Assembly: GCF_963678225.1 (NCBI RefSeq)
Contig: NZ_OY782764.1
Coordinates: forward strand, 1,047,001-1,111,000
From: an uncultured Cohaesibacter sp.
GTDB taxonomy: Bacteria > Pseudomonadota > Alphaproteobacteria > Rhizobiales > Cohaesibacteraceae
Length of the DNA stretch: 64,000 bases
Direction of reading: 5' to 3'
Made by a program: the position numbers and the translations under genes. Shown piece after piece: positions 1-29,728 of the stretch. A model generated the notes under the pieces. It had not been told where the DNA came from. It made no database searches and saw nothing but the letters and a program-made list of their open reading frames with translations. How positions within the stretch are numbered: position 1 is the first letter of the stretch; each line of letters starts with the position of its first letter.

Positions 1-287
1 TTGCAGTCCGAATTGAGCACGATTCCCAACAAACTTCCTAATAAAATATTTAAGTTTTAGAATCTGTTTCTTCTTTTAGACCGTGGATTGTGGGAGTTAT
101 TTTTGGCCCACACATTGCCCACAATGACTCTTGAACAACTGTGATTCAACAGTCGTTACCTTCTAGTAACTTTTAGGGACCAATGGGGACAAGTCTTATC
201 GACAGGCAGATTTCCGCGGAGTCTTCTGTGGTCAAATCTGGGGGCTATCTGGAGACAGAAATTGAGCAAAGTTTAACAAAGTGTGCA

Positions 288-303
288 TTAACTGTTTGTT
301 AAC
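288..303 (+). promoter_or_regulatory. CtrA-box-like site TTAA-N7-TTAAC
   Basis: TTAACTGTTTGTTAAC is an exact match to the full CtrA recognition sequence TTAA-N7-TTAAC known from Caulobacter and other alphaproteobacteria. It lies inside the putative origin, where CtrA binding would block initiation, and 320 bp upstream of maf, so it could also act on a promoter. Confidence 0.55.
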
Positions 304-355
304 CTCAGTAAACAGAGTGTTAATAAAACAGGCGTTGCTCAACTCAGCTTGGGGA

Positions 356-371
356 TTAATAAATGGTTAAC
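356..371 (+). promoter_or_regulatory. CtrA-box-like site TTAA-N7-TTAAC
   Basis: TTAATAAATGGTTAAC is the second exact full CtrA box, 68 bp after the first (start to start). Both have the trailing C of the consensus. Confidence 0.55.
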
Positions 372-460
372 GGGCATGAAAAGCCAAGCTCGGGAAAAAC
401 GGCTTGATTATCCCCTGTTGCCCACACCCCCTGTTGAAGAATCGATTGTTGAAGCCGGTC

Positions 461-475
461 TTAACCCTCTATTAA
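461..475 (+). promoter_or_regulatory. CtrA-box-like site TTAA-N7-TTAA
   Basis: TTAACCCTCTATTAA is the third TTAA-N7-TTAA motif. It is exact in both half-sites and the spacer, but followed by G instead of C. It lies 147 bp before the maf start. Confidence 0.45.
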
Positions 476-621
476 GACAGTCTCATGACGGAAATTGCTG
501 TTTTCCGGCCTTTTCAGCCTGTGTAAATCGTGACAGAGGGGAAAGATCCACAACAGCCGTTTTGTTTGACGCCTGCTTGCTCTAAAACTCGGATCATCTT
601 CTCAACGGTTGGACCTTTTTC

Positions 622-1218
622 ATGATTCCATTGATTCTAGCTTCCAAAAGTCAGGCTCGGGCACAGCTCTTGTCCAATGCCGGCCTTTCATTTGAGACAT
701 CGGTTGCGCAAATTGATGAGCGCGCCGCCGAACAGCCTCTATTGGCAGCAGGGGCTTCTCCTGCCGATATAGCAACCCTGCTTGCTCAGGTGAAAGCGAC
801 CGAGGTGTCCGTTCGCAATCCCGGTGCGCTGGTCATCGGAGCCGATCAGACATTGGGTTTTGGGGATAAACGCTTCAACAAACCAGAAGATGACGCTGCT
901 GCGCGCCGCCAGCTGCTGGAATTGGCCGGTCAGAGCCACCAGCTGAATTCGGCTGTGGTTTGTGCAAAAGATGGGGAAATCCTCTGGAGCCATGTTTCGA
1001 CAGCCACCCTCACCATGCGGCCATTGAGCCCGGAAGAGATCGGGCGCTATATGGCGCGCGTTGGCGATCAGGTGCGTTCCAGTGTCGGCTGTTATCAGCT
1101 TGAAGGGCTTGGCGTGCAATTGTTTGAAAAGATTGATGGCGACTATTTCACCATCCTCGGATTGCCCCTCCTCCCATTGCTCGGCTATTTGCGTGACCAT
1201 CAGGGACTGGGTTTTTGA
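622..1218 (+). CDS. maf: Maf-family nucleoside triphosphate pyrophosphatase
   Basis: This 198-residue protein belongs to the Maf family, cytoplasmic pyrophosphatases that remove non-canonical or modified nucleotides. The N-terminal substrate loop ([11 protein letters not shown], residues 7-17) has SQAR where many members have SPRR. The catalytic-acid motif IGADQT has its aspartate near residue 75. The tail reads [15 protein letters not shown], typical of alphaproteobacterial members beside aroE. Length is normal for the family. The stop codon lies two bases before the aroE ATG, so the two genes are probably translationally coupled. It is the first gene after the putative origin. Exact substrate preference cannot be read from the sequence. 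Confidence 0.93.
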
Positions 1219-29713: not shown

Positions 29714-29728
29714 TTAAGGTCACGTTAA
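29714..29728 (+). promoter_or_regulatory. CtrA-box-like site TTAA-N7-TTAA upstream of dnaK/alkB
   Basis: TTAAGGTCACGTTAA matches both CtrA half-sites with exact spacing. It lies about 100 bp upstream of the dnaK -35 element and 340 bp before alkB. Lacking the trailing C, it is a weaker candidate than the origin sites. Confidence 0.35.

Follow-up and report, generated by a model that had tools for sequence, protein, structure and literature searches.

The intergenic region between hemE and maf

The window, by which we mean the whole stretch of 64,000 nucleotides that was analysed, opens with an intergenic region between the divergent hemE and maf genes (Table 1). The original prediction had placed a replication origin in positions 1-490, within a gene-free stretch ahead of maf; in the list of open reading frames of the window, the earliest frame of at least 80 aa begins at 622, so that the gene-free stretch extends to the start of maf. 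The Maf protein of the window shares 97% identity with its C. marisflavi counterpart, and the host is a marine Cohaesibacter. The hemE gene, which was expected just before position 1, was indeed found there by profile search (TIGR01464, 392.9 bits), followed leftward by hemJ, rho, mnmE, mnmG, rsmG, a ParA-like gene and the ParB gene, of which rho, mnmE, mnmG and rsmG were assigned by eye, without a profile. To the right of the intergenic region lie maf, aroE, coaE and dnaQ, and the dnaA gene is 144 kb away. An intergenic position beside hemE and near parAB is typical of alphaproteobacterial chromosomal origins, as is a change in the sign of the GC skew, which we sampled in 36 stretches of 20 kb, together 720 kb out of 4.94 Mb (29 stretches on contig C2 and seven on C1). 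All ten samples to the left of the window gave a negative skew; to its right, 16 of the 18 between 1.12 and 3.5 Mb were positive (the remaining two being -0.004), and the skew was negative again at 3.59 Mb, the last sample on C2, and in all seven samples on C1. By this sampled pattern the origin lies at the left end of the window and a terminus around 3.5-3.6 Mb on C2, and the two contigs appear to belong to a single chromosome. With hemE just to the left of position 1 and the skew switching sign there, the predicted origin holds, and positions 1-621 are almost certainly the chromosomal oriC of a Cohaesibacter.

Alphaproteobacterial origins usually have ppsR as their right-hand neighbour. A profile search of the whole window genome (G000) found no ppsR (DUF299/PF03618); C. 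celericrescens still has a PF03618 gene beside its origin, and the gap between hemE and maf is without an ORF longer than 200 aa in 11 of 18 Cohaesibacter genomes.

Table 1. Features at the left end of the window; functions are predicted from sequence.
Position	Strand	Feature	Remark
1..621		Intergenic region between divergent hemE and maf, almost certainly oriC	hemE start codon 17 bp left of position 1, outside the window
39..78		AT-richest 40 bp (85% A+T), candidate unwinding element beside hemE	putative function
81..94	-	Conserved origin core with GTGGAT at 83-88 (ATCCAC on minus), candidate DnaA site	conserved block
107..123	+	Two CCCACA motifs (107, 118), weakly DnaA-like	cover the originally predicted site at 115
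183..195		Conserved block with GGGGACAA, possible weak DnaA site	putative function
196..204	+	Originally predicted DnaA-like site TTATCGACA	one-mismatch match
288..302		CtrA box 1, exact	first half of the conserved tandem pair
309..323		CtrA box 1-prime, one mismatch (left half TAAA)	21 bp after box 1
356..370		CtrA box 2, exact	overlaps weak DnaA-like TGGGGATTA (350-358)
408..426	+	TTATCCCCT and TTGCCCACA, DnaA-like	cover the originally predicted site at 418
461..475		CtrA box 3, exact	most recent
546..552	+	ATCCACA, nearest match to the order-wide DnaA core	outside the original interval 1..490 and overlooked there
622..1218	+	maf, right-hand flanking gene	NF002690, 278.5 bits, cut-off 269

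The three DnaA-like 9-mers named in the original prediction are present, at 115 and 418 with two mismatches to TTATCCACA and at 196 with one. The matches to the DnaA box in oriC are all such one- and two-mismatch ones; a further candidate is the conserved GTGGAT core, which had been overlooked and which occurs in 20 of 20 aligned Cohaesibacteraceae; across the order, ATCCACA is found in 36 of 56 origins, against 2.8 expected. The site at 196 was set aside as a candidate, since among the aligned genomes it is present only in G000 and G002. The motif CTGTTGA/TCAACAG, possibly a variant of the DnaA site, occurs in 27 of 56 origins of the order (3.3 expected), and the window has TGTTGA at 432 and 447. 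Positions 1-490 hold six GANTC sites (21, 60, 126, 143, 219 and 439) instead of the five originally counted, against 0.9 expected from the rate in the window (P 3.5e-4). In 42 origins of the order, GANTC, the CcrM motif, was counted 158 times versus 34-74 for seven permuted motifs, and AGANTCT 33 times versus 1-9.

CtrA boxes in the window, the genus and the order

The three full TTAA-N7-TTAA boxes of the original prediction stand as described, and the 64-kb window contains only one further exact copy, at 29714. Shuffling the whole window (n = 100) gave a mean of 0.23 boxes and a largest count of 2. Even one full box had been held to be improbable in so short a stretch; first-order shuffles of 1-490 gave a mean of 0.026 boxes and a P of at least one of 0.025, and none of 20,000 such shuffles reached three. 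The whole genome has 57 sites in 4.94 Mb, and three boxes within 621 bp have a probability of about 6e-8 if the genome rate applies, or 3e-6 if the local rate is used; among the 50 listed of these 57 sites there is no other trio equally close. Box 1-prime, which follows box 1 with one mismatch, had been overlooked.

The intergenic region next to hemE was aligned across 20 genomes, 18 of Cohaesibacter and two of other Cohaesibacteraceae. All of these origins except that of G017 (19 of 20) have one exact box or more, and together the 20 hold 37 boxes at spacing 7, as opposed to 0-6 at any other spacing between 3 and 11 and an expectation of 0.56. Several boxes in oriC that are kept in relatives are what a CtrA-controlled origin would be expected to show. 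The tandem pair formed by box 1 and box 1-prime, 21 bp apart, is full or has one mismatch in all 18 Cohaesibacter genomes: box 1 matches fully in 14 and misses by one base in four; for box 1-prime the numbers are three and 15, and its right half reads TTAA in every case. Box 2 is exact in nine and box 3 in six of the 18, all within the clade of the window, and both are absent from the Cohaesibacter genomes more distant than that clade; G001, G003 and G006 lack box 3 and carry a single mismatch in box 1. Loss of the boxes in relatives had been named as grounds for rejecting the prediction, and it is seen in part, in the changes just given to boxes 1, 2 and 3. Three of the six most conserved blocks of the region fall in the tandem pair, although the overall identity of the region to the window drops to 49-57% in nine of the 17 other Cohaesibacter genomes. 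In the six genomes with box 3, the invariant columns comprise 8 of 8 in the half-sites, 2 of 7 in the spacer and 12 of 30 in the flanks (60% over all columns), a pattern that is suggestive rather than strong since three of the six genomes are nearly identical. Judged from the alignment, the conserved unit is the tandem pair, not boxes 2 and 3.

For the order (Hyphomicrobiales), 49 genomes were taken, of which four were dropped because a divergent hemE was out of reach (G026, G028, G037, G054) and three because the gene border was unclear (G025, G038 and G047, the last with one exact box); the resulting sample comprises 42 origin regions from 40 family codes, G074 and G081 repeating families, with G021, G035, G064, G065 and all other second representatives left out. 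An exact box is found in 15 of the 42, which hold 17 boxes at spacing 7 versus 0-3 at each other spacing from 3 to 11; shuffled origins (n = 300) gave a mean of 1.1 and a maximum of 5. The 34 origins with at least 40% G+C have 12 boxes at spacing 7 versus 0-1 at the others, and six A/T control motifs reach 1-6 or fewer copies per set, in the Cohaesibacteraceae as in the 42 origins. Named loci, whose family labels we assigned from the record titles, differ by lineage: 4 of 13 Stappiaceae-type loci have an exact box, and so does 1 of 34 Rhizobiaceae-type origins, that of an uncultured Bartonella MAG with 26% G+C, at which chance explains the box. Five of the 39 Rhizobiaceae-type loci had been dropped for unclear borders, and none of the five has an exact box over the whole hemE-maf gap. 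A rough HemE tree was built by a quick method from 124 rows; it has several long branches and places G018 outside the Cohaesibacter group. In it, a box is present in 1 of 35 members of the Rhizobiaceae-type clade and in 1 of 19 of another clade. The state of the box changes 19 times on this tree, versus 36.2 times for shuffled labels (lowest 30 of 200), and 18 times once the Cohaesibacteraceae are removed, versus a shuffled mean of 21.9 (lowest 18), a modest signal. Since outside the Cohaesibacteraceae the state changes often, frequent gain and loss are likely.

At least two exact boxes are also seen in the origins of a Devosia MAG (L103), a Caulobacteraceae MAG (L097) and the AT-rich G069, and in the origin of G046 one exact box is accompanied by a one-mismatch box at a distance of 21 bp.

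Regulators, a proposed mechanism and alternative explanations

The genome encodes a CtrA orthologue that scores above the NF045991 cut-off and is 81% identical over 227 aa to Caulobacter CtrA, with a nearly unchanged C-terminal half. Proteins of the GcrA, DUF1153 and HPTransfase families are likewise encoded, all above their cut-offs; we take DUF1153 to be the SciP family and HPTransfase the ChpT family. The original prediction would have failed in a genome lacking ctrA or ccrM: the former is present, and the single N6_N4_Mtase gene encodes a CcrM-like methylase that scores 638 bits with the CcrM model, below the equivalog cut-off of 830. As regards the claim that CtrA controls initiation, the boxes, the pair and the genes of the CtrA, GcrA, SciP, ChpT and CcrM families are in place, and control itself would be their best explanation. 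An asymmetric cell cycle, which had also been proposed, does not follow from the boxes and is conjecture.

We propose that DnaA would open oriC beside hemE, at the AT-rich element and the conserved GTGGAT core, and that CtrA~P would bind the tandem pair, whose boxes are two helical turns apart, assisted in the clade of the window by the added boxes 2 and 3; the bound CtrA~P would then restrain initiation until CtrA is inactivated. We consider it rather likely that an origin opened by DnaA near hemE is held back in this way by CtrA~P on the tandem pair, although CtrA binding, repression, its timing and the bases used by DnaA are what we infer from sequence. Steric exclusion as in Caulobacter predicts boxes beside DnaA sites, a pattern that was not seen across the order: the median distance of 25 boxes to TCCACA/TGTGGA is 63 bp, versus 59 bp for random positions, and 4 of the 25 lie within 30 bp of such a motif, versus 7.1 expected. 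As these distances are no nearer than chance, a simple overlap of the boxes with DnaA sites is unsupported. In the window itself, box 2 lies on a weak DnaA-like site, and the last bases of box 1-prime belong to a conserved TGTTAATAA block that differs from a DnaA box at two positions, so that exclusion of DnaA by CtrA may be possible there.

Alternatively, the boxes could be CtrA sites that act in transcription, as part of a CtrA-dependent promoter for maf/ppsR, hemE or a small RNA, and take no direct part in initiation. Elsewhere in the genome, most CtrA boxes precede genes: full boxes lie ahead of FliF (two boxes), FliE, FlgI/FliX and FlgE/F/G-type genes, and further ones ahead of two flagellins and of CpaB-type, Tad, MCP and CheB/CheR genes. 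Flagellar, Tad and chemotaxis products make up 11 of the 20 neighbour genes or products run against Pfam, a set picked by hand, partly for its flagellar look, with 3 of the 20 lacking a Pfam match. Flagellar, Tad/Cpa and chemotaxis genes are usual targets of CtrA. Of the 50 listed boxes, 39 that lie outside the window were examined; 34 of them are intergenic, versus 12 of 17 sites with other TTAA spacings and 30 of 51 sites of other AT-only motifs, and because such control motifs are also mostly intergenic, this placement is weak evidence. Box 3 ends 146 bp before maf, within the range seen at those genes. The tandem pair, however, lies about 300 bp from the hemE start and keeps this distance (294-320 bp where box 1 is exact), whereas its distance to the rightward gene ranges between 46 and 532 bp; the pair is retained next to ppsR and next to maf alike. 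Moreover, positions 1-640 contain no sigma-70-like promoter versus 0.9 expected (CtrA promoters may deviate from the consensus), no Rfam family was found in 1-2000, and a terminator scan of the region found nothing. Hence we regard a purely transcriptional role as unlikely. Separately, two full boxes 23 bp apart were observed between a sciP-family gene and fliF (G000:C2:177770-178320).

It is very improbable that the boxes are bound by another OmpR-type regulator with CtrA-like specificity: response regulators are indeed many, with 43 matches to the CtrA query in the genome, but the second-best of these is only 39% identical, far from CtrA itself, and FliX and flagellar genes carry the same motif. 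The view that the TTAA repeats only reflect the AT-richness of origin DNA, without specific binding, would accord with a G+C content of 43% in oriC versus 54% in the window and with the lack of genome-wide enrichment of the motif (57 sites versus 85 for the reversed control pattern), but it is already disfavoured, and we give it hardly any credence, as spacing 7 alone stands out in the Cohaesibacteraceae, in the 42 other origins and in those with at least 40% G+C, and the A/T control motifs stay low.

CtrA-box origins beyond Caulobacter

Direct control of initiation by CtrA is best known from Cori of Caulobacter crescentus, an origin between hemE and COG1806 with CtrA, DnaA and IHF sites (PMC1914354, PMC4285127, PMC4468827). 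The Cohaesibacter origin resembles it in its place beside hemE, in its several TTAA-N7-TTAA boxes and in a CtrA orthologue with nearly the same DNA-binding half, and the Caulobacteraceae MAG origin mentioned above also has its two boxes 21 bp apart. It differs from the narrow Cori arrangement in that COG1806/ppsR is gone from the flank and from the window genome, the DnaA sites are not of the G-box type, and an exact match to the IHF consensus was not found in oriC; boxes 2 and 3, furthermore, are specific to the clade of the window. In a review from 2015, CtrA sites are described as unseen in origins other than that of Caulobacter and possibly that of Rickettsia, and their removal from Cori as only mildly perturbing to the cell cycle in the laboratory but of consequence under stress (PMC4468827). 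Sinorhizobium meliloti and Brucella abortus share with Cohaesibacter the order and the hemE side; unlike Cohaesibacter, the former is reported to have an origin without a CtrA motif and unbound by CtrA (PMC4433202), and the CtrA of the latter reportedly does not bind its own origin (PMC2877005). CtrA motifs have been predicted at the hemE-flanked origins of Rickettsia and Wolbachia (PMC1914354), which differ in being very AT-rich, so that chance matches are commoner there, and in Hyphomonas neptunium, which belongs to another order, a CtrA ChIP-seq peak adjoins the origin and is described as one site (PMC7200025). A search of the literature, subscription papers aside, found none that combines Cohaesibacter with CtrA.

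The classic connection of cell fate with DNA replication is CtrA acting at the origin, but the published case for it comes mostly from Caulobacter. Our comparison of origin sequences suggests that CtrA-box origins are common outside the Rhizobiaceae-type lineage; it adds Cohaesibacter to those that have them, and probably a third of the families in the order. It is possible, though we put this forward only tentatively, that direct CtrA control of oriC is old and widespread in the Hyphomicrobiales, disappeared from the Rhizobiaceae-type lineage that includes the model species (Sinorhizobium, Brucella), and was developed further in Cohaesibacter, with a third and a fourth box added to the conserved 21-bp pair. 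The Cohaesibacter oriC presents likely CtrA boxes, kept in relatives, in an order whose model species reportedly lack them. Since the genus is culturable, the pair is conserved and close species have two, three or four boxes, the gain and loss of direct CtrA control would be testable here.
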